From positions 1 to 64,000 of the forward strand of contig CAIPFE010000040.1 in NCBI GenBank assembly GCA_903864275.1: DNA of 64,000 bases, read 5' to 3'. Every line of letters starts with the position of its first letter. The stretch's first letter is position 1. Shown here in pieces: positions 3,641 to 63,513 of this stretch. Both the position numbers and the translations under genes were made by a program. The stretch comes from an uncultured Mucilaginibacter sp. Lineage in GTDB: Bacteria; Bacteroidota; Bacteroidia; Sphingobacteriales; Sphingobacteriaceae. Below the pieces are notes generated by a model. The model was not told the origin of the DNA and made no database searches. It saw only the letters and a program-made list of their open reading frames with translations.

Positions 3641-3717
3641 GAGAGTCGAGAAATCAAGAGCCAAGAAGCAAGATAAATTCGTCATGACTCTTGCTTCTTG
3701 AATTCTTGCCTCTCCTT
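3641..3717. repeat. Heptameric word array, inverted arms (NNCAAGA class), between convergent stops
   Basis: GTCGAGA AATCAAG AGCCAAG AAGCAAG and opposite arm CTCTTGC TTCTTGA ATTCTTG CCTCTCC. Confidence 0.8.
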
Positions 3718-3718
3718 C

Positions 3719-4822
3719 TTACACGTTAAACCTAAAGTGCATTACATCGCCATCCTGCACGATATAAGTTTTACCTTCTATGCTCAGCTTGCCGTTTTCC
3801 TTTATAGTTGCTTCCGATCCGTTGTATTTTACGAAATCGTCGTATTTTATCACTTCTGCCCGGATAAATCCTTTTTCAAAATCGGTATGGATAACCCCAG
3901 CTGCCTGTGGCGCAGTAAAGCCTTTGGTGATGGTCCAGGCGCGTACTTCTTGTACGCCGGCCGTGAAATAAGTAGCCAGGTTAAGTAATTTGTAGGCCGC
4001 TTTTATCAGTTTATTTACCCCCGATTCAGCTAATCCCAGGTCATCCAGGAACATTTGGCGCTCCTCGTAAGTTTCCAGTTGTGCTATTTCCGATTCTATT
4101 TGTGCAGATATGACCAAAACTTCGGCATTTTCATCTTTCACGGCAGCTTTAACTTTATCAACGTATGCATTACCTGTGTTAACCGAAGCTTCATCGACAT
4201 TACATACATACATCACCGGTTTAGCGGTCAGCAGCCATATATCGGCAATATATTCCTTATCTTCTTCAGCAACCGGGGCCGTACGGGCCGATTTCCCCGC
4301 GAGTATATGGTTCCTGTAAATCGTTAATACATCAAATGCTTTTTTGGCCTCTTTGTCGCCGCCGGTTTTAGCCATTTTCTCGATCTTCGATATCTTTTTT
4401 TCTATCGAATCCAAATCTTTTAGCTGCAGTTCGGTATCAATGATCTCTTTATCACGCACTGGATCTACCGAGCCATCCACATGGATCACGTTATCGTTAT
4501 CAAAACACCGTAAAACATGGATGATCGCATTTGTCGAACGGATGTTCGCCAAAAACTGGTTACCCAGGCCTTCGCCCTTGCTAGCGCCTTTTACCAGGCC
4601 TGCTATGTCAACAATCTCAATAACGTTCGGCACAACGTTTTTGGGCTTCACTATCTCCGTAAGCTTTGTTAAACGCTCATCAGGAACGGTAATTACGCCG
4701 ATGTTTGGCTCTATTGTGCAAAACGGAAAGTTTGCCGCCTGTGCTTTGGCGTTTGATAAGCAATTAAAAAGTGTTGATTTACCCACATTCGGCAAACCTA
4801 CTATACCACATTGTAAACCCAT
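3719..4822 (-). CDS. ychF: Redox-regulated ATPase YchF (OBG family GTPase)
   Basis: MGLQCGIVGLPNVGKSTLFNCLSNAKAQAANFPFCTIEPNIG; C-terminal TGS-like domain. Confidence 0.97.
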   Translation of the reverse strand: MGLQCGIVGLPNVGKSTLFNCLSNAKAQAANFPFCTIEPNIGVITVPDERLTKLTEIVKPKNVVPNVIEIVDIAGLVKGASKGEGLGNQFLANIRSTNAIIHVLRCFDNDNVIHVDGSVDPVRDKEIIDTELQLKDLDSIEKKISKIEKMAKTGGDKEAKKAFDVLTIYRNHILAGKSARTAPVAEEDKEYIADIWLLTAKPVMYVCNVDEASVNTGNAYVDKVKAAVKDENAEVLVISAQIESEIAQLETYEERQMFLDDLGLAESGVNKLIKAAYKLLNLATYFTAGVQEVRAWTITKGFTAPQAAGVIHTDFEKGFIRAEVIKYDDFVKYNGSEATIKENGKLSIEGKTYIVQDGDVMHFRFNV

Positions 4823-4831
4823 TGTTTTTTA

Positions 4832-4859
4832 GTTCACGGTTCATGGTTCATGGTTCATA
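4832..4859. repeat. Heptameric word array (GTTCATG x4) upstream of ychF
   Basis: GTTCACG GTTCATG GTTCATG GTTCATA. Confidence 0.85.
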
Positions 4860-7287: not shown

Positions 7288-7291
7288 GTTT

Positions 7292-7375
7292 GGGAGTCCG
7301 GAAGTCCGGATCCCGATAGTCCCGATAGCTATCGGGATCGGGACGGAAGTCCGAAAGACCAAAAGTACAAAGAAG
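7292..7375. repeat. Octameric/heptameric word array (AGTCCGGA class) with nested palindrome
   Basis: gagtccggaagtccgga then CCCGATAGCTATCGGG then aagtccgaaagaccaaaagta. Confidence 0.85.
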
Positions 7376-7471: not shown

Positions 7472-8440
7472 TTATTCCTTTATTACCGTTATTTTCAAAG
7501 TAGTGCCGTTCGTAATCATATTTGATTTATCTACAAATCTTCCATCAATAACTAACTTATATATCCCCTTGTTCAAAAAAGCATTTGTGATTTTTACAGT
7601 GTTATTATTATTATTATTTATAAAATTTAAATCCTTACAAAGTTTGTCATTTATGGTTAATTTAATTGCAGTTGAGATATATGGTGGATTTGCGAGGTCT
7701 ATGAATAAATCTCTTATGGATTTATATTTACCGTTGTTCGCCAATACTATCACTGAATCCTTGTCTTTTGAATAAATATTACTACTAAATACAAAGCCTT
7801 CACTTCTTGATTTGTCATATCTGTCTAAATAAAATTTATCACCTAAAACGTCATAAGCGTGATAAAACTTTACTTTTTTACCAATAGTGTCATAATAGTA
7901 ATAAAAATCCCCATACGGTTTATCATCGACCCAATTTCTTGTGTATTTTAAATTTCCGTCCTCATAATATGCATATTCTGTTCCATTGACTTTATCGTTT
8001 TTTCGAAATGACCTTTGTTCAATTTGTCCATTTTGATAGTAGGCTATTTTAGGCCCTTCGTATTTTCCATCAACAAAGGACTCCTTGCTCTTAATTTTCC
8101 CACTGTTATAATAATTAAATTCTACGCCTTCAATTTTATTGTTTTTAAAATAAGACATGTCTTTTATAACCCCGTTTGGATAATAGTCAGCTGTCCAGCC
8201 GTCAAATAGTCCGTTTTTTAAATTTGCCTTTTGAGTAATTTTGCCATTTACGTACGTATCAACTTCTCCGTCCAATTTACCGTTGCTATTAAAATGAGCT
8301 ATTACCCCACTCTTGTGAAATATAACAATATAGGTCTTCTTTAAAAACGTAAAATTATAAATTACCAATTTTAAAGCTATGATTAAACTTATAAGTAAGA
8401 CTATAAGTACCTTATATTTTGTTTTCATATAATAAAACAT
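7472..8440 (-). CDS. YwqK / MORN-repeat variant protein
   Basis: Repeated blocks such as NLKNGLFDGWTADYYPNGVIKD, FVDGKYEGPKIAYYQNGQIEQ, KVNGTEYAYYEDGNLKY. Confidence 0.75.
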   Translation of the reverse strand: MFYYMKTKYKVLIVLLISLIIALKLVIYNFTFLKKTYIVIFHKSGVIAHFNSNGKLDGEVDTYVNGKITQKANLKNGLFDGWTADYYPNGVIKDMSYFKNNKIEGVEFNYYNSGKIKSKESFVDGKYEGPKIAYYQNGQIEQRSFRKNDKVNGTEYAYYEDGNLKYTRNWVDDKPYGDFYYYYDTIGKKVKFYHAYDVLGDKFYLDRYDKSRSEGFVFSSNIYSKDKDSVIVLANNGKYKSIRDLFIDLANPPYISTAIKLTINDKLCKDLNFINNNNNNTVKITNAFLNKGIYKLVIDGRFVDKSNMITNGTTLKITVIKE

Positions 8441-8463
8441 CTTGCCAACGCAAACTTACAAAT

Positions 8464-8505
8464 CTTTCCATCTTTCGGTCTTCCGGACTTTCCCGACTTT
8501 CCCAC
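8464..8505. repeat. Octameric word array, inverted orientation of the 7292 array
   Basis: CTTTCCAT CTTTCGGT CTTCCGGA CTTTCCCGA CTTTCCCA. Confidence 0.85.
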
Positions 8506-11108: not shown

Positions 11109-11432
11109 ATGATAGCTACTATTTTATTACAGGCCTCTACTGGTTTTGGCGCACAACAAATAATCACATTCGGCTTAATTGCCGTTGTATTTTATTTCTT
11201 TATGATACGCCCGCAGGTCAAAAAGTCAAAAGACCAGAAAAAATATGTCAATGAACTGAAAAAAGGCGACAGGGTGGTAACTACGGCCGGCATACATGGA
11301 AGAATAATCGAGGTTGCTGAAGCTACCTTTTTGGTTGAAGTTGATAACGGCAAGATCCGTTTCGACAAATCAGCGATATCATTGGAAGCTTCGAAAGCGT
11401 TAAATACGCCGCCTGTGGTCACTAAGTCTTAG
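11109..11432 (+). CDS. yajC: Preprotein translocase subunit YajC
   Basis: FGLIAVVFYFFMIRPQVKKSKDQKKYVNELKKGDRVVTTAGIHGRI. Confidence 0.95.
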   Translation: MIATILLQASTGFGAQQIITFGLIAVVFYFFMIRPQVKKSKDQKKYVNELKKGDRVVTTAGIHGRIIEVAEATFLVEVDNGKIRFDKSAISLEASKALNTPPVVTKS

Positions 11433-11519
11433 TTAAGCTGAAAGCCGAAAGCATAAAGCTAAAAACCTGCATAGTATAGCTTTCGGGCTTTATGCTTTCT
11501 CCTTTTTGCTTTTAGCTTA
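11433..11519. repeat. Heptameric word array with inverted arms (GCTGAAA/AGCTTTC class)
   Basis: GCTGAAA GCCGAAA GCATAAA GCTAAAA ... AGCTTTCGGGCTTTATGCTTTCTCCTTTTTGCTTTTAGCTT. Confidence 0.85.
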
Positions 11520-11524
11520 AAAAA

Positions 11525-12472: not shown

Positions 12473-13065
12473 TGCTTAAAATTGGCATAACCGGGAATAT
12501 TGGCAGCGGAAAAACCACTGTAAGCAAGGTGTTTGAGGTGCTGGGCATTCCTTGTTTTTATGCTGACGACGCCGCAAAAACAGTAATGACAACCGATGAA
12601 ATCCTTATTAAAGGGATAAAATCGACTTTTGGTGAAACTTCGTATTTTAATGATGGCACGTTAAACCGCAAACATATCGCCGGGATCGTTTTTAATGATA
12701 AAAAACAACTCGCCAAATTAAATTCACTGGTTCACCCGGCAACTTTCCGGGCTTTTGATGCATGGGTAAGATCCATCAGCGGCGTGCCTTATGTATTAAA
12801 AGAAGCGGCCTTACTGTTTGAAAGTGACGCGCACAAATTCTGCGATTATACCATTATGGTACAGGCCCCGCTTGAAACCCGCATAAAGCGCGTAATGGAA
12901 AGAGATGCCGTTACACGGGATGAAGTTGAAAAACGGGAGGCAAACCAATTCCCGGAAGAAAAGAAGGCAACAATGGCTAACTATATTATCGTAAATGATG
13001 ATAAGCAACTGGTAATACCCCAGGTTTTGGAATTGCACCGCGTCTTTTGTTCATTGGTTCATTAG
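12472..13065 (+). CDS. coaE: Dephospho-CoA kinase
   Basis: MLKIGITGNIGSGKTTVSKVFEVLGIPCFYADDAAK. Confidence 0.96.
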   Translation: MLKIGITGNIGSGKTTVSKVFEVLGIPCFYADDAAKTVMTTDEILIKGIKSTFGETSYFNDGTLNRKHIAGIVFNDKKQLAKLNSLVHPATFRAFDAWVRSISGVPYVLKEAALLFESDAHKFCDYTIMVQAPLETRIKRVMERDAVTRDEVEKREANQFPEEKKATMANYIIVNDDKQLVIPQVLELHRVFCSLVH

Positions 13066-13250
13066 TTCACTGGTTCATTGGTAGGGGCGCATACCTCTCG
13101 CGGGCATGGCGAACTTCCTTAACAGATCTGGCCAATAAACTAATGAACTTTCTTAACAAAGCAGACCAATGAACTAATGAACCAGTGAACTAATGAACTT
13201 CCCTAACAGGGCAGACCAATGAACCAATGAACCAGTGAACTAATGAACTT
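13049..13250. repeat. Octameric word arrays (GTTCATTA class); arm 1 overlaps coaE 3' end, later arms overlap the exonuclease start
   Basis: GTTCATTG GTTCATTA GTTCACTG GTTCATTG ... CCAATGAA CTAATGAA CCAGTGAA CTAATGAA (two direct longer copies). Confidence 0.9.
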
Positions 13251-14378: not shown

Positions 14379-14407
14379 CCACACAATGACTGCTGCCGGA
14401 AGCTCAA

Positions 14408-14440
14408 ATCCGAAATCGAACATCCGAATTCCGAAATAAA
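14408..14440. repeat. Heptameric word array (ATCCGAA class)
   Basis: ATCCGAA ATCGAAC ATCCGAA TTCCGAA ATAAAA. Confidence 0.85.
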
Positions 14441-14462
14441 AGGGGATATTTGTGTTTTAGGA

Positions 14463-14924: not shown

Positions 14925-14932
14925 GTACATTT

Positions 14933-14962
14933 ACGAATTACGATTTACGAGTTACGATTTTT
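14933..14962. repeat. Heptameric word array (GATTTAC class), single arm
   Basis: GAATTAC GATTTAC GAGTTAC GATTTTT. Confidence 0.8.
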
Positions 14963-16804: not shown

Positions 16805-18187
16805 TTGACATTAATCAAATCAATTTCGGGCATACGGGGCACTATCGGCGGTTCAGCCGGCGAAGGCCTGACACCCGTAGACATCGTAAAATTCGTATCA
16901 GCTTATGGCACCTGGGCAATTAATAAAACAGGCAGAAAAAAAATTATTTTGGGCCGTGACGCGCGCATATCCGGCAATATGGTGAATAGCCTGGTTGTCG
17001 GCACCTTGCAGGGTTTGGGTATTGATGTGGTTGATCTGGGCCTGTCAACTACCCCGACAGTTGAAATAGCGGTCCCTTTGGAGCGGGCGGCCGGCGGGAT
17101 CATATTAACGGCCAGCCATAACCCCAAGCAATGGAATGCGCTCAAATTGTTAAATGCGGATGGCGAATTTATCAGCGATGCTGAAGGGAAAGAGGTACTG
17201 GTAATCGCCGAAAAAGGCGACCTGAAATATGCTGATGTAAACGACCTGGGAAAAGTAAATAATGAAGAGAATTATCTGCAAAAGCATATTGACCTGATAT
17301 TGGCTTTGCCTTTAGTTGATGCCGAAGCGATCGCAAATGCCGATTTCAAAATAGCGATTGATTGTGTTAACTCAACCGGGGGGATTTTTGTTCCTGCTTT
17401 ACTGAAGGCGCTTGGGGTAAAAACGGTATTTGAATTGTATTGCGAACCTGACGGTAATTTTCCGCATAACCCGGAGCCCTTGCCGGAGAATCTTACTGAA
17501 CTTTCAAAGGTGGTATTAAGTAAAAGGGCCGATTTGGGTATTGCTGTTGACCCCGACGTTGACCGCCTTTGCTTTGTTTGTGAAGACGGCAATATGTTTG
17601 GTGAGGAATATACGTTGGTTACCGTGGCCGATTACGTTTTGCAGCATACCAAGGGTAATACAGTTTCGAACTTGTCATCGACCCGCGCTTTAAGGGATGT
17701 GACTGAAAAGGCAGGCGGCGTTTACTATGCTGCAGCAGTAGGGGAGGTGAACGTGGTGAACAAAATGAAGGAAGTAAACGCGGTGATCGGGGGCGAGGGC
17801 AACGGTGGGGTGATATATCCTGACTTGCACTACGGCAGGGACGCCCTGGTGGGAATAGCCCTGTTTTTAACCCATCTTGCAAAATATGGTAAATCCGTTT
17901 CACACTTAAGGAGTACATATCCCGGCTATTTTATCTCAAAAAATAAGATCACGTTAACGCCAGAAATGGATATCGACAGGTTGCTGCTAAAAATTGAAGA
18001 AAAATACAAAAAGCATCCGCACTCCACCATCGATGGCCTGAAAATAGAATTTGACAAAGAATGGGTACATTTGCGCAGGTCAAACACCGAGCCGATTATC
18101 CGTATTTACTCGGAAGGTACGTCGGAAACGGTTGCAAATAATCTTGCAAATAAGATAATTGCCGATATAAAAGAGATTTTAAAGTAG
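16805..18187 (+). CDS. glmM: Phosphoglucosamine mutase
   Basis: (M)TLIKSISGIRGTIGGSAGEGLTP; ILTASHNPKQWNALKLL; TTG start proposed at 16805. Confidence 0.9.
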   Translation: MTLIKSISGIRGTIGGSAGEGLTPVDIVKFVSAYGTWAINKTGRKKIILGRDARISGNMVNSLVVGTLQGLGIDVVDLGLSTTPTVEIAVPLERAAGGIILTASHNPKQWNALKLLNADGEFISDAEGKEVLVIAEKGDLKYADVNDLGKVNNEENYLQKHIDLILALPLVDAEAIANADFKIAIDCVNSTGGIFVPALLKALGVKTVFELYCEPDGNFPHNPEPLPENLTELSKVVLSKRADLGIAVDPDVDRLCFVCEDGNMFGEEYTLVTVADYVLQHTKGNTVSNLSSTRALRDVTEKAGGVYYAAAVGEVNVVNKMKEVNAVIGGEGNGGVIYPDLHYGRDALVGIALFLTHLAKYGKSVSHLRSTYPGYFISKNKITLTPEMDIDRLLLKIEEKYKKHPHSTIDGLKIEFDKEWVHLRRSNTEPIIRIYSEGTSETVANNLANKIIADIKEILK

Positions 18188-18316
18188 TCCGGAAGTCGGA
18201 AAGTCCGTAAGTCCGAAAGAAGCTGCAGCTGACAAGAACTATAGTTCGATTGCAAACGTAAAAATATAGAAAAAAACAATCTTCCGGACTTTCGGACTTT
18301 CCGGACTTTCGGACTC
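18186..18316. repeat. Octameric word array with inverted arms (AGTCCGGA class) between glmM and cysteine desulfurase
   Basis: AGTCCGGA AGTCGGAA AGTCCGTA AGTCCGAA ... TTCCGGAC TTTCGGAC TTTCCGGAC TTTCGGAC. Confidence 0.9.
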
Positions 18317-19594: not shown

Positions 19595-19894
19595 ATGAAA
19601 GCTAAAAATCAAAAAACCGGAAGAAATCAGGAACGCCCAGCCAAGGGACGTCCGAATGAAATTCCTGAAAAGAGGGAATCGGAACACGAAAATTTAGAGT
19701 ACCCGCATGAAACGGAGCAGGAGCAGCAGCAAAGCGGCAGCGATGCTTCTTACAGCGAACAGGCTGGTGTTACTCCGCCAAAACCACATGAATTTCCTGG
19801 AGTAGGTAATGCAAAAGGTGATTTTGTAAGCAAACCGTATGGCCGCACCACCGGCAGGATGGTTGGCTATGAACCGGGAACGGAAAGTATTTAA
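19595..19894 (+). CDS. Small hydrophilic hypothetical protein
   Basis: Complete ORF, Q/E/P/G-rich, likely disordered. Confidence 0.5.
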   Translation: MKAKNQKTGRNQERPAKGRPNEIPEKRESEHENLEYPHETEQEQQQSGSDASYSEQAGVTPPKPHEFPGVGNAKGDFVSKPYGRTTGRMVGYEPGTESI

Positions 19895-27723: not shown

Positions 27724-28803
27724 ATGGACTTAAAAAACTATAAAGGTGTTTTGCACGGCGACCAGGTGCAGGAACTATTTGAAGCTGCAAAAAAGCACCA
27801 GTTCGCTTTGCCGGCCGTAAATGTAACAGGCACTAATACAATAAATGCGGTAATGGAAACTGCAAAGGCGGTTAATTCGCCGGTAATTATACAACTTTCA
27901 AATGGCGGCGCGCAGTTTTATGCGGGCAAATCGTTAGATAACTCAAAGCTGCAGGCCTGTATTTTAGGTGCGGTTTCGGCTGCAAAACATGTTCATTTAT
28001 TGGCTGAACATTATGGTGTGGCAGTAATATTGCACACGGACCATGCGGCCCTGAAGTTTTTACCGTGGATCGATGGATTGTTAGATAACGGCGAAAAGTT
28101 TTTTGCTGAGACAGGACAGCCATTATTCTCATCGCACATGCTCGACCTTTCGGAAGAGCCATTGCATGAAAATATTGAAATATCAGCCAAATATCTCGTT
28201 CGCATGGCGAAAATGGGTATGACCCTCGAAATAGAGTTAGGCGTTACCGGTGGTGAAGAAGATGGCGTCGATAACTCGGATGTTGACAGCTCACGTTTAT
28301 ATACGCAGCCTGAAGATGTGGCTTACTCCTACGAAGAACTTTCAAAAGTAAGCCCAAGGTTTACCGTGGCTGCTGCTTTTGGTAACGTGCATGGCGTTTA
28401 CAAACCGGGTAATGTAAAACTGCAGCCGGTTATCCTGCATAATTCGCAGGTGTATTTAAAAGAGAAATTTAACCTTGCAGCCGAAAAGCCTATCAATTTT
28501 GTATTTCATGGCGGATCCGGCTCAAGCCAGGCCGAGATCAGGGAGGCTATATCTTACGGCGCTATCAAAATGAATATTGATACCGATATGCAATGGGCTT
28601 TTTGGGAAGGCATTAAAGATTATTACCAATCGAAAGAAGGCTACCTGCAAAGCCAGATCGGCAGCCCCGACGGCGCAGATTCGCCCAATAAAAAATATTA
28701 CGACCCGCGTGTATGGCTACGTAAAGGGGAAGAAAATTTTGTAAAAAGATTAAAAGAAGCCTTTGCAGATCTAAATTGCATTGATGTGAATAGTAAACTG
28801 TAG
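27724..28803 (+). CDS. fbaA: Class II fructose-bisphosphate aldolase
   Basis: FALPAVNVTGTNTINAVMETAKAVNSPVIIQLSNGGAQF; HTDHAALK; NFVFHGGSGSSQAEI. Confidence 0.95.
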   Translation: MDLKNYKGVLHGDQVQELFEAAKKHQFALPAVNVTGTNTINAVMETAKAVNSPVIIQLSNGGAQFYAGKSLDNSKLQACILGAVSAAKHVHLLAEHYGVAVILHTDHAALKFLPWIDGLLDNGEKFFAETGQPLFSSHMLDLSEEPLHENIEISAKYLVRMAKMGMTLEIELGVTGGEEDGVDNSDVDSSRLYTQPEDVAYSYEELSKVSPRFTVAAAFGNVHGVYKPGNVKLQPVILHNSQVYLKEKFNLAAEKPINFVFHGGSGSSQAEIREAISYGAIKMNIDTDMQWAFWEGIKDYYQSKEGYLQSQIGSPDGADSPNKKYYDPRVWLRKGEENFVKRLKEAFADLNCIDVNSKL

Positions 28804-28880
28804 GTAAAAGGTAAAGGGCGAAAGGTAAAAGGTATTTTTTCTTTTTACCTTTCGCCTTTCTCCTTTTACTTTTCATCTTA
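28801..28880. repeat. Heptameric word array with inverted arms (AGGTAAA class)
   Basis: AGGTAAA AGGTAAA GGGCGAA AGGTAAA AGGT ... CTTTTTACCTTTCGCCTTTCTCCTTTTACTTTTC. Confidence 0.9.
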
Positions 28881-34727: not shown

Positions 34728-34886
34728 AAGGTGAAAGGCCAAAGGTGAAGGGTAAAAGGTTTCCGCCGTAACTATTTGAATTTCAAAACAGATTTTTAAA
34801 TATATAACAAGAATTTTTTCCTTTGTACAGATGATAAACCGTGCGTTTTTAACCTTTTACTTTTCGCCTTTAACCTTTTACCTTTC
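34728..34886. repeat. Heptameric word array with inverted arms (AGGTGAA/AGGTAAA class)
   Basis: AGGTGAA AGGCCAA AGGTGAA GGGTAAA AGGT ... CTTTTAC TTTTCGC CTTTAAC CTTTTAC CTTTCCC. Confidence 0.9.
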
Positions 34887-36436: not shown

Positions 36437-36484
36437 TGGTGGTTGTAAATGTTGAAGATGTTGTAATAAGTTGTAAATGTTGTT
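36436..36484. repeat. Nonameric word array (GTTGTAAAT class) upstream of thyA
   Basis: GTTGTAAAT GTTGAAGAT GTTGTAATA AGTTGTAAAT GTTG. Confidence 0.7.
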
Positions 36485-37423: not shown

Positions 37424-38233
37424 ATGATCATCTTTCCCAACGCAAAAATCAATATAGGCCTTAATGTAATTAACCGCCGCCCGGACGGTTATCATGACCT
37501 GGAAACTGTCTTCTATCCAATAAAAATAAACGACGCGCTGGAGATCATTAAAGCTGACAAATTAAGTTTTGAGTCCACCGGGCTGGAGATTCCGGGCAGG
37601 GTAGAGGATAATCTTTGTATTAAAGGCTATCATTTGCTAAAAAAGGACTTTGATTTGCCGCCGGTAAAAATCCACCTGCATAAACATATCCCGATAGGAG
37701 CGGGGCTTGGCGGGGGATCGGCAGATGCGGCGTTTTTTATCCGATTGGTCGATCAAACCTTTAACCTTGGCCTTACGGACGACCGGATGATTGCCTATGC
37801 CAGGCAATTAGGCTCCGACTGCGCTTTCTTTATCAAAAACGAACCTGTATTCGCTTTTGACAGAGGCGATGAGTTTGAACCCATAAAACTCAACCTTTCC
37901 AATTACAAAATAGTGCTGGTAATGCCGCCGGTACATGTCTCCACCAGCGAAGCTTACAGCGGTGTAAAACCCGCGCTTGTTAAACATTCATTAATGGAAT
38001 TAATTTACCGGCCCGTTGTTGAATGGAAAAATTATATAAAAAATGATTTTGAGGACTCCGTGTTTAAAAACCACCCAGAGATCAGGGGCATTAAAGCAGC
38101 ACTCTACGAAGCCGGCGCAATTTATGCGAGTATGAGTGGGAGCGGGGCTTCTGTTTTTGGGATATTTGATAAGACACCAGATATGGAGGTACTGAGGAAA
38201 GAAAATGAAGTGTTTGTCGATTTACGATTTTAG
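37424..38233 (+). CDS. ispE: 4-diphosphocytidyl-2-C-methyl-D-erythritol kinase
   Basis: PNAKINIGLNVINRRPDGYHDLETVFYPI; IPIGAGLGGGSADAAFFI. Confidence 0.96.
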   Translation: MIIFPNAKINIGLNVINRRPDGYHDLETVFYPIKINDALEIIKADKLSFESTGLEIPGRVEDNLCIKGYHLLKKDFDLPPVKIHLHKHIPIGAGLGGGSADAAFFIRLVDQTFNLGLTDDRMIAYARQLGSDCAFFIKNEPVFAFDRGDEFEPIKLNLSNYKIVLVMPPVHVSTSEAYSGVKPALVKHSLMELIYRPVVEWKNYIKNDFEDSVFKNHPEIRGIKAALYEAGAIYASMSGSGASVFGIFDKTPDMEVLRKENEVFVDLRF

Positions 38234-38340
38234 AATTACGATTTACGAATAAGCTTGTCTGACTTATTAAATCCGAAATCGAAATTCTGAAATCCGAAAT
38301 AAAAAAATTCGTAAATCGTAATTCTAAAATCATAAATCAA
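38222..38340. repeat. Heptameric word arrays, inverted arms (GATTTAC and ATCCGAA classes)
   Basis: GATTTTA GAATTAC GATTTAC GAATAAG; ATCCGAA ATCGAAA TTCTGAA ATCCGAA; then AATTCGTAAATCGTAATTCTAAAATC. Confidence 0.9.
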
Positions 38341-46371: not shown

Positions 46372-46408
46372 CGTCTGCACATTTGCATATCCGCACATTT
46401 GCACATTA
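46372..46408. repeat. Octameric word array (TTGCACAT class) upstream of dprA
   Basis: CTGCACAT TTGCATAT CCGCACAT TTGCACAT. Confidence 0.8.
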
Positions 46409-46417: not shown

Positions 46418-47518
46418 ATGTCACAACTTCACCAGGTAGCTTTAACTTTTGTAAAAAACATCGGCCCGACGCTGGCCAAATCCCTGGTTAGCTACTTTGG
46501 CAGCGCCGAAGGAGTTTTTAACGCACCGAGGTCCAAGTGGTTGAAAGTGCCCGGGATTGGCGGGAAGACTGTTGAACAAATGGATATGGGCGCGGCGCTA
46601 AGCAGGGCGGAGGAAGAATTGAAGTTTATCGAGAAGAATAATGTAGAGGTTGTTTTTTATACCGACGGCAGGTATCCAAAGCGGTTAAAAAACTGTAACG
46701 ATTCGCCTGTATTGCTATATGCTAAAGGAAATGCCAACCTGAATTCGCGGCATATTATAAGTGTCGTAGGCACGCGTAACGCTACAGAGTACGGAAAACA
46801 CCTTTGCAAGCAACTGATAGAGGAATTGCAGCCTTATAATGTTTTAATAGTAAGTGGCCTGGCATTAGGGATCGACGTTGCGGCCCACAAAGAATGCTTG
46901 AAATTGAACCTGCCCACGCTGGGTGTGCTCGGCCACGGGCTCGACAGGATATATCCCAGTCAAAACCGTTCAACCGCAGAAAAAATGGTGGAGAATGGTG
47001 GTTTAATAACTGAATACCCTTCAGGCACTATACCCGACCGGGAGAACTTTCCGCAGCGCAATCGGATCGTCGCCGGGATTGCCGACGCCACCATAGTGGT
47101 GGAGGCCAGCATAAAAGGGGGTGCTTTGATCACGGCGGAAATAGCAAACTCCTATAACCGTGATGTTTTTGCCTTTCCGGGCAGAATAGGTGACGATTAT
47201 TCGGAAGGCTGTAATTTTTTGATACGCAATAATAAAGCCGCTTTGCTTACCGGTGCAGCGGACCTGGCTTATATTTTAGGCTGGGAAAAAGCAGACAACA
47301 CAAAACCGGTTGTCGAGCAATTGCTGCTTCCAATTGATCTGTCAACGGATGAACTATTGATATTTGATATTTTAAGGCTGCACAAAACACCATTACCTAT
47401 TGATGACCTTACCATAAAAACCAACATGGCCACCAGTAAATTAGCTATGAATTTGCTGAATATGGAAATGCAGGGCTATATAAGATCATTACCCGGGAAA
47501 ACGTATTGTTTGTGTTAG
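46418..47518 (+). CDS. dprA: DNA processing protein DprA
   Basis: ISVVGTRNATEYGKHLCKQLIEEL; IVSGLALGIDVAAHKECLKLNLPTLGVLGHGLDRIYPSQN; NRIVAGIADATIVVEASIKGGALITAEIA. Confidence 0.96.
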   Translation: MSQLHQVALTFVKNIGPTLAKSLVSYFGSAEGVFNAPRSKWLKVPGIGGKTVEQMDMGAALSRAEEELKFIEKNNVEVVFYTDGRYPKRLKNCNDSPVLLYAKGNANLNSRHIISVVGTRNATEYGKHLCKQLIEELQPYNVLIVSGLALGIDVAAHKECLKLNLPTLGVLGHGLDRIYPSQNRSTAEKMVENGGLITEYPSGTIPDRENFPQRNRIVAGIADATIVVEASIKGGALITAEIANSYNRDVFAFPGRIGDDYSEGCNFLIRNNKAALLTGAADLAYILGWEKADNTKPVVEQLLLPIDLSTDELLIFDILRLHKTPLPIDDLTIKTNMATSKLAMNLLNMEMQGYIRSLPGKTYCLC

Positions 47519-47649
47519 AGATTAGAGACCGGAGATTAGAGATTAGTTGAGTCCGGAAGTCGGAAAGTCCGGAAGAAAAAAATAGCAGTGGGGGTTTTAG
47601 ATTCGATGCCAACTTCAACCAATCTCCAACCTTTGATCACTAACCTCTA
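47516..47649. repeat. Word arrays at convergent dprA/sixA stops (GATTAGA, AGTCCGGA and AATCTCC classes)
   Basis: AGATTAG AGACCGG AGATTAG AGATTAG, then AGTCCGGA AGTCGGAA AGTCCGGA AG, then AATCTCC AACCTTT GATCACT AACCTCT. Confidence 0.9.
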
Positions 47650-49826: not shown

Positions 49827-49841
49827 TGAAAGGTTTAGACT

Positions 49842-49876
49842 TACGAAGTCTCGAAGACTTCGTAAGTCTGGTGGGA
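49842..49876. repeat. Near-perfect palindrome
   Basis: agacttacgaagtct cga agacttcgtaagtct. Confidence 0.75.
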
Positions 49877-49879
49877 ATG

Positions 49880-50434
49880 CTAAAACAATTCGTCAACAGC
49901 TTTACAAAGTATATGACCTATCAGGATGTGCATTTCCTGTATCCGGGCAGTTACGTCAGAAGGTACAACAATGTTCAAATCGCAGATACCATTCATTTTA
50001 CCGCCATCCCTGCCCGAAAAGCCCAAAGTTTTACAGCCCATTTTTTTTGCAGCTTCAATAGCATTCAATATCCCCTGGCTATTGCCGCTGGTTGATATAC
50101 CTATAAATAAATCACCCGGTTGTGCCAAAGCCTCCACCTGCCGCGAAAATACATGATTATACCCGTAATCGTTGGCTATGGCGGTTAGGGCGGAGGTATC
50201 AACAGTTAAAGCAATACCCGGGAGCGCCTTACGCTCCTTTACGAAGCGACCGCTTAGTTCAGCCGCGATATGTTGCGCATCCGCGGCACTGCCCCCGTTA
50301 CCGGCCAGCAGTACCTTACGACCATTTTTTATAGCGGCGGTAATAAGCTCACAACCCTTTTCAATATCGCCGCCAAGCAGGTCAATTACTTTTTGTATCA
50401 GCTGCTGATGTTCTTTAAGTTCTTCGATAACCAT
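49880..50434 (-). CDS. gmhA: SIS-domain D-sedoheptulose-7-phosphate isomerase
   Basis: VLLAGNGGSAADAQHIAAELSGRFVKERKALPGIALTVDTSALTAIANDYGYNHVFSRQVEAL. Confidence 0.93.
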   Translation of the reverse strand: MVIEELKEHQQLIQKVIDLLGGDIEKGCELITAAIKNGRKVLLAGNGGSAADAQHIAAELSGRFVKERKALPGIALTVDTSALTAIANDYGYNHVFSRQVEALAQPGDLFIGISTSGNSQGILNAIEAAKKMGCKTLGFSGRDGGKMNGICDLNIVVPSDVTARIQEMHILIGHILCKAVDELF

Positions 50435-50436: not shown

Positions 50437-50622
50437 TTTTGAATTTCGGATTTCGGAATTTCGTCCCGATAGCTATCGGGATCGGATTTATTTTATATTT
50501 CGGATTTGGGAATCTCGTCCCGATAGCTATCGGGATCGGATTTGTTATTTATTTGGATTTTTATTTTGTTAATTACCAATGACTTAATGACCAAATTACC
50601 AATGACTAATGACTAATGCCCC
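50437..50622. repeat. Word arrays (ATTTCGG class; AATGACT class) plus two copies of the CCCGATAGCTATCGGG palindrome
   Basis: aatttcggatttcggaatttcgt[CCCGATAGCTATCGGG]atcgga repeated with 54 bp offset (50465-50480, 50519-50534); then aatgacttaatgaccaaattaccaatgactaatgactaatg. Confidence 0.88.
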
Positions 50623-51596
50623 CCCATGTTTTTTATGATTTCATCAATAGTAGTGGTAGCGCTTCCAATATGCCTTATTACAATAGCGGCGGCGTGGTTG
50701 GCCAGTTCGCAGGCCTCGTCAACCGGCAGGCCCAGAGCTATAAAATAAGCAATCGCCGCAATAACCGTGTCGCCTGCACCTGTCACGTCAAAAACTTCTG
50801 TAGCTTTTACCGGCAGTAATTTACTGGTTTGTTCGGTAACAATTGCCATACCTTCTTCGGATAGTGTAACGATCAGGTAAGTTGCCCCGGTTTGCTGAAA
50901 AATGGTTTTGGCCGCATGTTGCAGATCGGCAATACCGCTTATTTTTTCGGTTTTAGCAGCCTCAGCAAGCTCTTTCCGGTTGGGTTTTATGATATAGGCG
51001 CCCCTGTATTTTTCGTAATTTAAACCTTTTGGATCAATAACTACCTTTTTCCCACGCTCATTTGCAATTTTGATCAATCGTTGCGTTAGCCCGGGTGCAA
51101 ATAATCCTTTGTTGTAATCGGACAAGATCACTATATCGGAACTATCAATATTTGCGCCTAGCTTTTCTATCAGTTCATCTTCAAATTCCTGCGAAACTGC
51201 GTCCGTAACCTCCCTATCCACCCTTACCACTTGATGGCTGCCAACCAAAATACGGGTTTTAACGGTCGTCGACCGGGTATTATCCTTAATTATGGTATCG
51301 GTCTTAACGCCTTCGCTTTCCAGTATTTCAATAAGCTGGTTACCTGCTGCATCATCACCAATTACGCCCGCCACGGTAACTTTCGCGCCAAGCGCAACCA
51401 AATTTTGAACAACGTTCCCTGCGCCACCCAATGTAGTCGACTCATTTTTTACATTCACGATAGGCACAGGCGCTTCCGCGGATAACCTGGTTGCGCTGCC
51501 CCAAATATAATGGTCGATCATAAAGTCGCCGATAACCAGTACCGAAGGCTGTTTTTGTGCTAACTGGATGGATCGTACTTTATCTATCAGGTTCAT
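50613..51596 (-). CDS. rfaE1: D-glycero-beta-D-manno-heptose-7-phosphate kinase (PfkB family)
   Basis: VLVIGDFMIDHYIWGSATRLSAEAPVPIVNV; FDVTGAGDTVIAAIAYFIALG. Confidence 0.92.
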   Translation of the reverse strand: MNLIDKVRSIQLAQKQPSVLVIGDFMIDHYIWGSATRLSAEAPVPIVNVKNESTTLGGAGNVVQNLVALGAKVTVAGVIGDDAAGNQLIEILESEGVKTDTIIKDNTRSTTVKTRILVGSHQVVRVDREVTDAVSQEFEDELIEKLGANIDSSDIVILSDYNKGLFAPGLTQRLIKIANERGKKVVIDPKGLNYEKYRGAYIIKPNRKELAEAAKTEKISGIADLQHAAKTIFQQTGATYLIVTLSEEGMAIVTEQTSKLLPVKATEVFDVTGAGDTVIAAIAYFIALGLPVDEACELANHAAAIVIRHIGSATTTIDEIIKNMGGH

Positions 51597-51705
51597 TAGT
51601 TCACTAGTTCATTAGTTCATTGGTGGGTTGGTCATTAGTCAACGGTCATTAGATTTGCTACGAATCTTTAGCTTTCTGCTTTCAGCTTTCACCTCCCGCC
51701 CTTCG
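51593..51705. repeat. Octameric (GTTCATTA) array at the rfaE1 start and heptameric (AGCTTTC) array at the PolX stop
   Basis: GTTCATTA GTTCACTA GTTCATTA GTTCATTG GTGGGTTG GTCATTAG; GCTTTCT GCTTTCA GCTTTCA. Confidence 0.9.
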
Positions 51706-55997: not shown

Positions 55998-56084
55998 TAA
56001 ATGTTATAAATCTGTTAACTATGCAAACTTAGTAATTCAACATGGTATAACATTAAGAGCCTTGTCGATAATATTTGTTACAAC

Positions 56085-56564
56085 ATGATTAATGTTTTTT
56101 TATTGCTGGGAAGTAACTTGGGCAACAGGCATTTGTTTCTAAAAGAGGCAATTGAGCATATCGAAAAAGATATTTCCCCGGTGTTAAAAATCTCGTCGGT
56201 ATATGAAACACAATCATGGGGTAAAACGGATGCGCCGGATTATCTTAACCAGGTGGTGATGTTGCAAACCGATCTGCCTGCGCAAATAATTCTTCAAAAA
56301 ATACTGAACATTGAGCGTGTATTGGGGAGAAGCCGCGGTGAGAAATGGGGGTCGCGTACTATTGATATTGATATTTTGTTTTACGGAGACGCCATTATTA
56401 ATGAGCCGGGCCTTCAAATCCCTCATCCTGAATTGCATAATAGACTGTTCACATTGGCGCCCCTGGCCGAAATTGCGCCCGGTTTAGTGCATCCGGTGCT
56501 AAAAAGTAACATTTTACACCTTAAAAAGCAACTTAAAGGTGGCTTAATCGTAAAAAAATTATAA
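56085..56564 (+). CDS. folK: 2-amino-4-hydroxy-6-hydroxymethyldihydropteridine pyrophosphokinase
   Basis: VFLLLGSNLGNRHLFLKEAIEHIEKDI; VLGRSRGEKWGSRTIDIDILFYGD; IPHPELHNRLFTLAPLAEI. Confidence 0.95.
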   Translation: MINVFLLLGSNLGNRHLFLKEAIEHIEKDISPVLKISSVYETQSWGKTDAPDYLNQVVMLQTDLPAQIILQKILNIERVLGRSRGEKWGSRTIDIDILFYGDAIINEPGLQIPHPELHNRLFTLAPLAEIAPGLVHPVLKSNILHLKKQLKGGLIVKKL

Positions 56565-56588: not shown

Positions 56589-56966
56589 ATGTCACACATT
56601 TTACCGGGGCAAGATCTCGATCTTTCGTTTTTATATGATATTGCCGATGGCAGTAATGAGTTTGTCGTTGAATCAATTGATATGTTCCTGCACCACACGC
56701 CCGAGATGCTGCAAACGATCACCACAGCATTGGCTGATAAGGACTGGCCGCTTGCCGCCCAGGTTTCGCATAAATTAAAACCCAATCTTGGTTTTTTTGG
56801 CATGCCGGTAAGCCAGGCAACAATGCAGGAAATTGAACTGATGGCAAAGGCTGGCGCCCCGGACCCGGAATTGCTATTGTCAAAATTTTATGAAGTAAAA
56901 GAAGTGATCTCCACCAATATAGTTACGCTCGAAAAAATAAAGGCGGATCTGGAGGTTGGTGGTTAG
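56589..56966 (+). CDS. Stand-alone HPt (histidine phosphotransfer) domain protein
   Basis: AAQVSHKLKPNLGFFGMPVSQATMQEIELMAK: helical HPt fold with H-K motif. Confidence 0.8.
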   Translation: MSHILPGQDLDLSFLYDIADGSNEFVVESIDMFLHHTPEMLQTITTALADKDWPLAAQVSHKLKPNLGFFGMPVSQATMQEIELMAKAGAPDPELLLSKFYEVKEVISTNIVTLEKIKADLEVGG

Positions 56967-57160
56967 AGATCAGTGATTAGTCCGGAAGTCCGAAAGAAGC
57001 TGCTATAGATGTTTTGGTAAAAAATAACTTAGCTATATAGAAGAGATTAATATACTGTCCGAAAATAAAGTAATGGTCATCTGTTACAGCTTTAAGCTTT
57101 TTGCTTTAAACTTTTAGCTAATCACTAACCACTAATCTCCAATCACTAATCTCTAAACCC
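56963..57160. repeat. Word arrays at convergent HPt/purS stops (GATTAG, AGTCCGGA, GCTTTAA and AATCACT classes)
   Basis: TTAGAGATCAGTGATTAGTCCGGAAGTCCGAAAG; GCTTTAA GCTTTTT GCTTTAA; AATCACT AACCACT AATCTCC AATCACT AATCTCT AA. Confidence 0.9.
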
Positions 57161-57413
57161 CAACTTCCTCCACCCTAAAACTATAGCTTTCCATAATAAG
57201 GTTTGCCAATAGGTTTTTGCAGGCCTGGTCTATTTTGCTGTGGGCGGTTTCGGCATTATCGGCTTCAATTTCAAGAGTGATATGTTTACCGATACGCACA
57301 TTTTGTATTTCGGCTAAGCCGAGGTTTTTCATACTCCCGGTTACTGCTTTTCCCTGCGGGTCGAGTATTTCTTTTTTTGGCATTACGTCTATTTCGGCCT
57401 GGAACGTTTTCAT
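57153..57413 (-). CDS. purS: Phosphoribosylformylglycinamidine synthase subunit PurS
   Basis: MKTFQAEIDVMPKKEILDPQGKAVTGSMKNLGLAEIQNVRIGKHITLEI; start revised to 57413. Confidence 0.92.
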   Translation of the reverse strand: MKTFQAEIDVMPKKEILDPQGKAVTGSMKNLGLAEIQNVRIGKHITLEIEADNAETAHSKIDQACKNLLANLIMESYSFRVEEVGV

Positions 57414-58251: not shown

Positions 58252-58269
58252 CCCGGTATGAAGGTATTA

Positions 58270-58420
58270 AGATTTTTTCGATTTCGGATTTCTGACTTTT
58301 TTCGATTTCGGATTTTGTTTTTTACTTAAGAACGTATTCCGTGATTTATATATTATATAATACACAAAATCTGAAATAATGTTCTTCTCCTAAATCCGAA
58401 ATCGAAACTCCGAAATCAAT
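58270..58420. repeat. Word arrays with inverted arms (ATTTCGG / ATCCGAA class)
   Basis: TTCGATTTCGGATTTCTGAC TTTTTTCGATTTCGGATTTTG ... ATCCGAA ATCGAAA CTCCGAA ATC. Confidence 0.85.
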
Positions 58421-60454: not shown

Positions 60455-61288
60455 ATGATTTCCCGCCTGCAGCTAATCAACCAGATCAAACAAAAAAAAT
60501 CATTCTTATGTGTGGGCCTTGATACCGATATCGAAAAGATCCCTGCATTTTTAAAAGAATATCCTGATCCGGTATTGGAGTTTAACAAGCGGATCATAGA
60601 CGCAACCAATGACCTTTGCGTTGCCTACAAACCCAATGCAGCGTTTTACGAGAGCAGGGGCGTAAAAGGTCTGCAAAGTTTGATTGATACCTGGAAATAC
60701 CTGCCAAAAGATTGTTTAAGCATAATAGATGCCAAACGCGGCGATATGGGCAATACCTCTGAAATGTATGCCAAAGCTTTTTTTGATGAAAGAGCCTCGG
60801 GTATGAGTTTTGACGCGATAACCGTTTCGCCTTATATGGGACATGACGCGGTTACTTCCTATTTAGCCTACCCCGGTAAATGGGTGGTCCTGCTGGCGCT
60901 TACCTCGTCCGCAGGCAGTAAGGACTTTCAATACCTAACAACCGACCGGGGATTGTTATACGAGGCCGTTATAAAGAAGGCAAATACCTGGGCCAGCGCT
61001 GACCGGATAATGTATGTGGTAGGTGCTACCAAAAGCACCGAGTTTACAAACATCCGAAAATACGCGCCGGATAATTTTTTACTGGTTCCCGGCATAGGGG
61101 CACAAGGCGGCAGCCTCGCCGATGTTTGCCATTATGGTATGAATAAGGATTGCGGGTTAATCGTAAATGCATCCCGTTCGATCATCTATGCGTCGAACGG
61201 CGAAGATTTTGCCGAAGCGGCACGGGCCGAGGCCCTGAATATGCGGCAACAGATGCAAGCGGAATTGGAAAAAGCTGGAGTGGTCTGA
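60455..61288 (+). CDS. pyrF: Orotidine 5'-phosphate decarboxylase
   Basis: FLCVGLDTDIEKIPAFL; IIDAKRGDMGNTSEMYAKAFF. Confidence 0.96.
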   Translation: MISRLQLINQIKQKKSFLCVGLDTDIEKIPAFLKEYPDPVLEFNKRIIDATNDLCVAYKPNAAFYESRGVKGLQSLIDTWKYLPKDCLSIIDAKRGDMGNTSEMYAKAFFDERASGMSFDAITVSPYMGHDAVTSYLAYPGKWVVLLALTSSAGSKDFQYLTTDRGLLYEAVIKKANTWASADRIMYVVGATKSTEFTNIRKYAPDNFLLVPGIGAQGGSLADVCHYGMNKDCGLIVNASRSIIYASNGEDFAEAARAEALNMRQQMQAELEKAGVV

Positions 61289-61318
61289 ATTACGAATTTA
61301 GATTTACGATTTACGAAT
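61286..61318. repeat. Heptameric word array (GATTTAC class), single arm, starting on the pyrF stop
   Basis: TGAATTAC GAATTTA GATTTAC GATTTAC GAATCGG. Confidence 0.9.
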
Positions 61319-61470
61319 CGGCACAGAGACTTAGGAAGTTTAATTCGGATAATATTTGTTTTTCAGAGACCCCGTGGGGGCTTCGCCATTTAAAACTAAG
61401 TTTTTATAGTTAGCATTGGCTTTTTTCGTGGTAATTGCTAAATTACAACCTCTTACGATTTGATAAAAAA

Positions 61471-63444
61471 ATGAAGAAACACTTACTGCTTATCACAGCT
61501 TTGTTTGCCGCTTGTTTTACCTTCGCCCAGCAAACCAAAAAACCAATACAGCCGACTGATGTTTACCGTATCCCAACGCTGGGCAGCCCCCAGGTTTCGC
61601 CGGATGGCAAATGGGTTGCGTATGACCTTTCGGAGGTTGACACCGCCAAAGACGGCCGGGTATCGCATCTATGGATGCAAAGCTGGGATGGTACGCAATC
61701 CATCCAGCTTACTTACGGCGACGAACCGGCTTCATCGCCAAAATGGAGCCCCGATGGCAAATACCTTTCGTTTATTTCCTCGCGCGATTCAAAAAACGGT
61801 TCACAGATATGGCTGATGGACCGCAGGGGCGGAGAAGGAAAAAAGCTTAGTGATATAAAAGGCGATATTAACGACTATTTGTGGTCGCCTGATGCGGGTA
61901 AGCTTTTGCTAACGATTAATGACCCGGAAAATGGCGGTAAAAAAGAACCGAAAACTCCAGACCCTATAAAAATTGACCGTTATCATTTTAAGCAAGATGT
62001 GGAAGGCTATTTGCTGCACCGGCATCCGCATTTATACTTGTTTGATATCGGCACAAAAAAACTGGATACACTGACAAAAGGCGACACCGATGAGGGCGCA
62101 GCAGAGTGGTCGCCCGATGGTAAGCAAATTGTTTTTGTAAGTAACCATTCCGCCGGTCCCGAAAGGAATGACAATGACGATATTTTTGTGATCGATGCCA
62201 AACCCAAGGCTGTGGCCAGCCAGTTTACCACATGGAAGGGTCGTGACGGGGCGCCGCACTGGAGCCCGGACGGTAAATACATTGCCTATTTACGATCTAC
62301 CAGCGATGCCGACTACATGATGTATGACCAGGAAATTTTATGTGTGATGGATGCCGACGGAAAAAATAACAAGCTGGTTACGCAACAACTCGACAGGCCG
62401 GTTACATCTTTCAGATGGAGCAAGGATAGTAAAACGATTGCCTTTTTAGTGGCTGATGACCGCGCAAGGTACGTGGATGCTTATGATGTGGCAAGCGGCA
62501 AAATGGCACCTGTTATAAAAGGGGAGTACTCGGTTGGCGGTATAGAAGCAAATCCGGACGGCAACTGGCTGATAGAAATGAGCAATCCCTATACACCTGC
62601 AGAATTGTATGCGCTTGAAAACGGTAAGACTCGCCGGTTGACTTTCCATCAGCAGCAATGGCTAAGTACTGTTAGCCTTGCGCATGTGGAAGGCTTTCAG
62701 TCAAGAAGCAATGACGGCACGCACGTTTCGGGATTGGTTTATACGCCCGACAGCGTGAATCGCAAAAAGCTGCCCATGATATTGTTTATTCATGGCGGGC
62801 CGGTTGGGCAGGATGAATTTAGTTTCGACCCTACCCGGCAAATATTATCGTCGGCAGGTTTCACGGTCATTGGTGTTAATTATCGCGGCAGCAATGGGCG
62901 CGGCCTCGATTATTGCAAGGCAATATATGCGGATTGGGGCAATAAGGAAGTTAAGGACCTGTTAGGCGCGGTTGATGAGGTGGTAAAAGAAGGGATTGCG
63001 GATCCCGACCATCTAGGTATTGGCGGCTGGAGCTACGGCGGCATACTTACCAATTACACCATAGCTTCAGATACGCGTTTTAAAGCCGCGGCCAGCGGCG
63101 CGGGCAGCAGCCTGCAAACTACCATGTACGGTATTGACCAATATGTTTTGCAGTATGACAACGAGATTGGCGCCCCATGGAAAAACCAGGACAAATGGAT
63201 AAAATTATCTTACCCGTTTTTTCATGCCGACAGGATAAAAACACCTGTGCTGTTTATGTCGGGTCTAAAGGATTTTAACGTACCTACCGCAGGGAGCGAA
63301 CAAATGTACCAGGCCCTTAAATCACAGGGTATAACTACCGAATTGATACTTTACCCGAATAGCTTCCATGGCATTAGTAAACCAAGTTATCAGGTTGACC
63401 GATTGCAGCGGTATATTGCATGGTATGATAAGTATTTGAAATAG
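61471..63444 (+). CDS. S9-family prolyl oligopeptidase / acylaminoacyl peptidase
   Basis: Signal peptide; SPDGKWVAYDLS propeller; catalytic GGWSYGGILTNY; FIHGGPVGQDEFSF. Confidence 0.94.
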   Translation: MKKHLLLITALFAACFTFAQQTKKPIQPTDVYRIPTLGSPQVSPDGKWVAYDLSEVDTAKDGRVSHLWMQSWDGTQSIQLTYGDEPASSPKWSPDGKYLSFISSRDSKNGSQIWLMDRRGGEGKKLSDIKGDINDYLWSPDAGKLLLTINDPENGGKKEPKTPDPIKIDRYHFKQDVEGYLLHRHPHLYLFDIGTKKLDTLTKGDTDEGAAEWSPDGKQIVFVSNHSAGPERNDNDDIFVIDAKPKAVASQFTTWKGRDGAPHWSPDGKYIAYLRSTSDADYMMYDQEILCVMDADGKNNKLVTQQLDRPVTSFRWSKDSKTIAFLVADDRARYVDAYDVASGKMAPVIKGEYSVGGIEANPDGNWLIEMSNPYTPAELYALENGKTRRLTFHQQQWLSTVSLAHVEGFQSRSNDGTHVSGLVYTPDSVNRKKLPMILFIHGGPVGQDEFSFDPTRQILSSAGFTVIGVNYRGSNGRGLDYCKAIYADWGNKEVKDLLGAVDEVVKEGIADPDHLGIGGWSYGGILTNYTIASDTRFKAAASGAGSSLQTTMYGIDQYVLQYDNEIGAPWKNQDKWIKLSYPFFHADRIKTPVLFMSGLKDFNVPTAGSEQMYQALKSQGITTELILYPNSFHGISKPSYQVDRLQRYIAWYDKYLK

Positions 63445-63513
63445 GGGTTAGAGATTAGAAACAGAAACTTTAAGTTTTTTTCGGTCCTTTTTAGAATTGA
63501 TAGCCATTGTTTT

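Follow-up and report, generated by a model that had tools for sequence, protein, structure and literature searches.

Why should the tandem arrays between the genes of one bacterium keep a nearly constant unit length while the unit itself changes from site to site? The question is raised by a stretch of 64,000 nucleotides (the window) from an uncultured Mucilaginibacter sp. of the Bacteroidota (contig CAIPFE010000040.1, positions 1 to 64,000 of the forward strand), for which an earlier note had described degenerate intergenic arrays of many different words. These word arrays are likely the terminal inverted repeats of small selfish elements built around a gene of the S23 family, with most copies being gene-less derivatives. 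The S23-type elements are probably mobile.

Word Arrays in Intergenic DNA

The window represents contig C40 in a 63-contig genome of 6.03 Mb, in which genes were defined by a simple longest open reading frame (ORF) rule; a conserved protein places the relatives of the genome in Mucilaginibacter. Relative to dinucleotide shuffles, the intergenic DNA of the window possesses an autocorrelation excess at lags 7, 8, 14, and 21 (z = 7.9, 6.1, 6.6, and 4.8, respectively), and the same lags stand out in 864 kb of the genome (z = 12.3, 8.1, 7.0, and 10.2). A lag-9 excess is present as well. Arrays scoring at least 10 in ~100 kb of intergenic DNA number 44, 31, 13, and 51 at periods of 7, 8, 9, and 14, respectively, where 0.3-1.1 are expected, a 10- to 170-fold excess over dinucleotide-shuffled sequence. 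Counts at periods 4-6 and 10-13 are close to chance, and 764 kb of coding DNA contains just seven arrays of period 7 and four of period 8. The arrays of the window are also listed by Tandem Repeats Finder (TRF). The 14-mer AGTCCGGAAGTCCG has 34 copies genome-wide, and its reversed control has none.

The arrays reported in the earlier note are therefore real and far above the shuffled expectation, and its central claim of a constant period with a variable word is borne out by the enrichment of periods 7 and 8 across many words. The word AGTCCGGA, said to recur at distant sites, was indeed found at 7295, 8463-8503 (as the reverse complement), 18186, 47550, and 56979. The note was also right that the arrays are neither microsatellites nor CRISPR; the latter identity is ruled out because the arrays lack spacers. 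No Rfam family matched within the window.

Paired Arms and Their Anatomy

An array is in most cases paired with an inverted second arm within the same gap, which the earlier reader overlooked. Examples include AAGGTAA...TTACCTT at 28.8 kb, AGTCCGGA...TCCGGACT at 18.2 kb, GATTTACG...CGTAAATC at 38.2 kb, and CAAGA...TCTTG at 3.6 kb. In total, 61 array hairpins were found in 496 gaps (864 kb of the genome). Several of them fold much better than their shuffled counterparts do (z from -8.1 to -2.7), but the hairpin at 47.5 kb does not (z = -0.5).

The arms have a polarity and a rather constant length of about four units. The 5' arm contains more G than C in 55 of the 61 gene-less hairpins, and the 5' arms that flank S23 genes share this polarity (79 of 83 in the Bacteroidota set). 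The median arm is 31 bp or 4.4 units at S23 loci and 30 bp or 3.9 units at gene-less hairpins. When same-word arms at unrelated loci are compared, agreement is 0.85 in register, 0.77 after a shift of one unit, and 0.71 between units within an arm. The arms thus behave more as terminal repeats with degenerate units than as free arrays.

S23 Genes Between Inverted Arrays

In some gaps of related genomes, a small gene lies between the inverted arrays and encodes a four helix bundle protein of the S23 family. The genome under study contains ten S23 genes (PF05635/TIGR02436; for instance, 94-96 bits for L096 and L095), and nine of these are flanked by inverted arrays of one word each, namely GAGATRT, GGTTCATA, GGTCGATA, GGTTGTAA, GGTGAGT, GGTTCATT, AATTTGAA, ATTTCGG, and ATATCGA. 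The arms were scored by Smith-Waterman (SW) alignment of the upstream flank with the reverse-complemented downstream flank, and inverted arrays were defined as an SW score of at least 14. The nine loci score 18-35.5, while 727 other genes in the genome have a 99th percentile of 16, a value exceeded by only ~1% of them. The tenth gene, L097, has a GTGTGAG hairpin on its upstream side only. All ten loci have protein genes or a tRNA on one or both sides, and none is inside a 23S rRNA gene.

This arrangement is widespread. The S23 family is present in 60 of 61 Mucilaginibacter genomes and, in a sample of 148 genomes from Bacteroidota, in 116, and inverted arrays flank 24 of the 28 usable loci of the genus and 42 of 44 loci in five further gene-rich genomes. 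Together with the loci of the genome itself, terminal inverted repeats surround the S23 ORF at 75 of 82 loci. The proportions are 19 of 30 in a Bacteroidota-wide sample and 14 of 21 on plasmids of cyanobacteria, Gemmatirosa (Gemmatimonadota), and Azospirillum, where the cross-locus null is 5%; words at these non-Bacteroidota loci include GGGAGTA, GGGAAAA, GGGTGTA, AGGTGAC, AAAGCTA, and AGGAGGGC. The S23 loci used throughout are best-scoring or per-genome matches from which truncated loci were dropped, and the S23 catalogues are complete for a few genomes only. The phages searched yielded no S23 match.

Some locations recur. An S23 element lies between nrdB and nrdA both in the genome under study (L095) and on a plasmid of Nostoc edaphicum (L354). 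On cyanobacterial plasmids, L357, L359, and L363 are within CRISPR-associated gene clusters of types III-B and I-D.

A structure model built from one S23 sequence is uneven, with a predicted local distance difference test (pLDDT) score of 80 for the best of five and 45-68 for the others. The modeled fold of L240 resembles XCC0516 (2gsc) with a template modeling (TM) score of 0.83-0.89, and TM scores of S23 models against 2gsc, BT_0352 (2rld), and Avd (4dwl) are 0.77-0.90. The PDB deposits of 2gsc and 2rld each contain five chains. A reverse transcriptase domain (RVT_1) was not detected in the genome and is absent from 28 of 61 genomes of the genus, so a reverse transcriptase partner was rejected; the enzyme is evidently not required, because none is detectable in the genome itself. 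In the literature searched, no function outside of rRNA was found for the S23 or '23S rRNA intervening sequence protein' family.

Linkage of Word and Protein

The word at an S23 locus follows the lineage of its protein. Among pairs of S23 loci at non-orthologous positions, the word is shared by 15 of 15 pairs with a protein similarity of at least 0.8, by 48% of those at 0.6-0.8, and by ~0.1% of those below 0.5. A Mantel comparison of word with S23 protein lineage gives r = 0.42, exceeded in 0 of 2000 permutations, none of which reached 0.1.

The same words link the gene-less hairpins to S23 genes. The word of an S23 arm from the genus is carried by 45 of 61 gene-less hairpins and that of an arm from the genome itself by 23 of 61, compared to 1 and 0 for shuffled arms. 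Moreover, S23 words are dispersed in their own genome at 0.52 per 100 kb vs. 0.14 for words of other genomes (3.8-fold, p = 3e-9), and a word is thus commoner where its S23 gene is present. In whole-genome counts for AGTATCA, all 12 of the 61 genomes with a known S23 gene of this word hold at least five sites (5-79), and the median is 0 for the other 49 (Fisher p = 6e-6). The reversed pattern is itself another S23 word, GTTCATA, and was counted as such rather than as a chance control. One near-complete Mucilaginibacter genome that lacks a PF05635 gene, G052, still has six AGTATCA sites and offers a natural control for the decay of hairpins when S23 is missing.

One connection within the genome concerns the hairpin of word GTTCATTG at 13049..13250, whose right part is duplicated. 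It matches S23 element L096 with SW scores of 29 and 34, and the 52 nt that they have in common (96% identity) include the non-array sequence TTAACAAAGCAGACC. Because the two share non-array sequence, at least this hairpin descends from a full element. The orthologous gap is only 17-20 bp in G021 and G004.

Orthologous Gaps in Related Genomes

Orthologous gaps of five relatives with conserved synteny were compared, as were those of a panel comprising 80 named loci, and both empty sites and word swaps were found. A given gap is either empty in relatives or contains a hairpin of another word in which both arms are switched together. The site most often swapped is the 3' end of purS (56951..57167). 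In the window it contains a GAGATTA hairpin with inner arms of AGTCCGGA (56979-57001) and AAAGCTT (57088-57119), matching S23 arms L128 (SW 21.5) and L271 (SW 18). In the panel its words are GAGATTA, AAGGTAA, AAGCTGA, AAGTCCG, AAGTCTTA, and AAGATTC, and in many other species the gap is only 2-26 bp. In the divergent promoter gap at 55997-56085, which is 73-112 bp long across the panel, no array was found.

Two further comparisons show how hairpins change. L199 and L209 differ in nothing but the length of one arm, by five 8-nt units. The loop of a resident hairpin that is empty in L205 and L218-L225 holds an AGTATCA hairpin in L207 and L264. Other dispersed hairpin types, GTAGAGACGCATCACATGCGTCTC and CCCCTAACCCCCTGAAGGGG, occur in L225 and L264, in the gap orthologous to 49826-49880, and in L266.

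Other Arrays of the Window

All hairpins of the window are gene-less, and most have a recognizable S23 counterpart. A CAAGAAT/CAAGAGC hairpin (3641..3716; fold z = -3.8; S23 arm L302, SW 17) lies in the 80-bp gap between ychF and a convergent FGE-sulfatase gene. Next to the start of ychF, a GTTCATG array identified by TRF (4832..4858, plus strand) matches S23 arm L297 (SW 19.5), and the orthologous gaps contain full hairpins of GTTCATA (G021) or CAAGAAT (G004). The word AGTCCGGA forms a left arm at 7295..7310 (plus strand) whose partner, at 8463..8503 (minus strand), reads AGTCCGAA as the reverse complement on the plus strand; both correspond to S23 arm L271, the right arm with an SW score of 23. 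Between these arms, 1.2 kb apart, lies a MORN-repeat gene (7472-8440) with no match in the syntenic stretches of five relatives, which could be either cargo or chance. The same word forms a hairpin between two co-directional genes at 18186..18315 (fold z = -6.0; L271, SW 26.5 and 31).

The hairpin at 11432..11520 (AAAGCTG/AAAGCCG), found in the array-hairpin survey, has AAAGC in G004 and AAAGGTA in G014, G023, and G021; no cognate S23 was found for it among the S23 arms compared. Directly after an aldolase stop codon is an AAGGTAA hairpin (28802..28869; fold z = -8.1; L276, SW 27), and G014 has an AAAGC hairpin at this site instead. An AAGGTGA hairpin upstream of secDF (34728..34885) is absent in G021 and G004. 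The GAGATTT/GAGATAT hairpin at 27556..27694 matches S23 arms L101 (SW 28.5) and L091 (SW 21), and G014 possesses only degenerate or other-word (AGTCCGAA) traces there. The hairpin at 47515..47649 is formed by GAGATTA with a AGTCCGGA arm inside (47550-47574; S23 arms L128, L304, and L271), and across the panel its gap is empty or contains hairpins of AATTTGAA, GTCATTG, AGTCCGAA, or GAGATTA. A short GAGATTA array is found at 63445..63460 (plus strand; L128, SW 13).

The word ATTTCGG is represented by an arm at 14406..14441 (minus strand, with the reverse complement on the plus strand), which is 94% identical over 36 nt to S23 element L099. It also forms a hairpin at 58252..58419, where relatives have ATTTCGG, GTTCATA, or AGTATCA hairpins or none. 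At 38218..38338, the loop of a GATTTACG hairpin (fold z = -5.0) holds an ATTTCGG arm (38269-38300; L099, SW 24.5). Arms of ATTTCGG (50441-50463) and, in reverse, GTCATTA (50570-50618) lie together at 50441..50618 and match L099 (SW 16) and L289 (SW 25), respectively. Arms of three words are combined at 51591..51691, with GTTCATTA (51591-51621), GTCATTA, and reversed AAAGCTG (51666-51691), and the S23 arms are L096 (SW 28.5) and L306 (SW 13). The remaining arrays are GTTGTAA with period 9 as a single arm (36442..36483, plus strand; L094, SW 22.5), TGTGCAAA with period 8 upstream of dprA (46376..46407, minus strand; L312, SW 14), and two single arms listed by TRF for which a cognate S23 was not found, GATTTACG/AATTACG (14929..14960) and ATTTACG (61288..61316), both on the plus strand.

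A separate palindrome, TCCCGATAGCTATCGGGA, is also dispersed: two copies lie at 50.4 kb (50441-50560) beside ATTTCGG arms, and a part copy lies at 7311-7330 beside AGTCCGGA. Downstream of a class-V aminotransferase gene, positions 19595-20203 and the orthologous gaps encode small, acidic, repeat-rich hypothetical proteins whose length is very variable between species.

A Proposed Origin and Its Alternatives

A full element would consist of a word array, a gene for an S23-family four-helix-bundle protein, and the reverse complement of the word array. Its ends would be terminal inverted repeats of ~30 bp, each made of about four degenerate units of 7-8 nt and with the 5' arm rich in G, and many lineages, each with its own word, would coexist. 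Most copies may have lost the S23 gene or never had it, and they would persist as bare hairpins in the manner of miniature inverted-repeat transposable elements (MITEs). We infer that an S23 oligomer binds the repeated units and moves copies in trans, with hairpins of the matching word being spread by host enzymes through a cut-and-copy step. If the oligomer were a ring with one subunit for each ~7-nt unit, as the five chains of related structures may suggest, both the fixed period and the drifting word would be accounted for. The tolerated sites would be the 3' ends of genes, away from promoters.

Mutation alone is extremely unlikely to have produced this pattern. Replication slippage in steps of ~7 nt, with template switching in imperfect palindromes, could make and homogenize paired arrays anywhere, and the degenerate units, the same word on both arms, and the unit-step change between the close relatives L199 and L209 are consistent with it. 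The process leaves unexplained why words recur at distant sites, are the S23-flanking words, and follow the S23 lineage, and it does not account for the partly fixed unit order and ~4-unit length of the arms. Of the two mechanisms suggested in the earlier note, a structural constraint is favored over copying in ~7-nt steps because the arms have about four units in a partly fixed order, occur as inverted pairs, and carry words that follow the S23 lineage. Unit-step changes do happen, but they alter arms and do not create word families. The S23 genes might instead be passengers that favor hairpin loops for insertion, in an independent repeat family moved by other means. Loops do serve as targets, as the AGTATCA insertion in L207 and L264 indicates, and words are nested in the window at 38.2, 47.5, and 57.0 kb. 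Passengers are nevertheless unlikely, since close S23 relatives at unrelated sites retained the same word in 15 of 15 pairs and hairpins of a word are more numerous in genomes that hold an S23 gene of that word.

The position of the hairpins could point to selection for bidirectional transcription terminators or stabilizers of mRNA 3' ends. Hairpins are most frequent between convergent genes (17 of 79 gaps) and least frequent between divergent genes (7 of 104), and the median distance from arm start to stop codon is 5 nt. This explanation is very unlikely given that related species have gaps of 2-35 bp without hairpins at the same gene ends, and canonical T-tailed terminators are found beside or inside hairpins. 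Selection against insertion into promoters predicts the same distribution. Furthermore, G-U pairs are not favored among arm mismatches when the transcribed strand is considered (82 vs. 84), so nothing seen here indicates that RNA-level pairing of the arms is preserved, and RNA-level selection on the arms was rejected. There is even less chance than for terminators that the arrays are operators of a regulatory DNA- or RNA-binding protein, as proposed for the TAACTGA repeats of Beggiatoaceae (PMC4679880). Repeats could bind oligomeric proteins and S23 might be such a regulator, but the sites are at the 3' ends of genes rather than their starts and are freely lost or swapped between species.

Several observations weigh against elements moved by S23 proteins. 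About a third of the S23 loci outside of the genus have weak arms or none, and the window words AAAGC and GATTTACG have no partner among the S23 arms found. Array density and S23 number are only moderately correlated (Spearman 0.51, p = 0.02, 20 genomes): G074 has ten S23 genes and no arrays in 80 kb, G014 has two and many arrays, and G021 carries AGTATCA arrays although an AGTATCA S23 gene was not seen there. No movement was observed, and a target-site duplication could not be defined in the comparison of filled and empty sites, which are too diverged to locate the ends. To our knowledge, S23 has no known catalytic motif. Joint travel of arms and gene, without recognition, would also give the linkage of word to protein.

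A broader proposal, to which we would give somewhat less than an even chance, is that S23 proteins are sequence-specific pentameric word readers whose specificity drifts with the word and which drive a mobile element that itself encodes no catalytic protein. The rRNA intervening sequences, the heptamer repeats of cyanobacteria, and the GGGAATC repeats of Xanthomonas would then be forms of one element that is found in Bacteroidota, in cyanobacteria, and in other groups as well. Bacterial heptamer repeats, on record since 1990, have had no owner, and a link to S23 would supply their origin. The S23 protein, in turn, would gain a candidate substrate, with each S23 gene naming its own expected binding word, and the many natural pairs of protein and word would provide material for decoding a rule of nucleic-acid recognition. 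No paper linking heptamer repeats to S23 was found in the open literature, nor any relevant paper with these words or TIGR02436; most subscription papers were outside of the search, and an earlier description is therefore possible.

Comparison With Known Systems

Among dispersed repeats, the repetitive extragenic palindromic (REP) sequences and REPINs with their RAYT genes are similar in being non-autonomous hairpins with a gene between copies (PMC3116915, PMC3733652). They differ in that the gene here is S23 rather than an HUH nuclease, the ends are heptamer arrays, and there are many words per genome. Similarly, the MITE of an insertion sequence (IS) element would have a transposase rather than S23 between its repeats. 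Avd of diversity-generating retroelements shares the fold of the S23 model (4dwl, TM 0.77) and has a weak sequence match, whereas the present genome has no detectable RVT_1 reverse transcriptase.

The earlier note knew of no multi-word equivalent in Bacteroidota. This is only partly correct, as the heptamer repeat TAACTGA has been reported in five Bacteroidetes as well as in Beggiatoaceae and cyanobacteria (PMC4679880). The TAACTGA repeats are likewise heptamers with a patchy distribution across phyla. In contrast to the arrays described here, they are direct sets upstream of start codons, for which a regulatory role was proposed, with almost no inverted pairs (PMC4679880).

The earlier note was right to name the short tandemly repeated repetitive (STRR) sequences of cyanobacteria, heptanucleotide repeats credited to Mazel 1990 as cited in PMC2670836, as the nearest known relatives. 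In Xanthomonas and Nostoc, GGGAATC and GGGGA(C/T)T repeats have a preference for four units (PMC4692102). Like the arrays of Mucilaginibacter, the STRR and Xanthomonas/Nostoc repeats are intergenic degenerate heptamers of several word families with a four-unit preference, and many are inverted pairs near stop codons that avoid divergent genes. The cyanobacterial S23 genes located here adjoin such arrays on both sides, and the STRRs are probably the same kind of element, although the words found here differ from the published STRR words. A further difference is that S23 genes were never linked to the repeats in the papers found, and the Xanthomonas authors reported that the repeats generally have no association with mobile elements (PMC4692102).

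The intervening sequence (IVS) of the Coxiella burnetii 23S rRNA is 428-444 nt long, with a 28-bp terminal stem and an S23 ORF in the loop, and the helices into which it is inserted were originally capped by tetraloops (PMC4990558). The two have in common a ~30-bp inverted-repeat stem whose loop holds an S23 ORF, insertion into a hairpin loop, and a long-suspected mobility. Unlike the IVS, the elements described here occupy hundreds of sites outside of rRNA, mostly without a gene, and their arms are arrays of 7-8-nt words that track the S23 lineage. Because location, array-like arms, and the excess of gene-less copies differ, they are not called IVSs. Overall, the S23-type elements are best regarded as relatives of the IVSs found in 23S rRNA genes.

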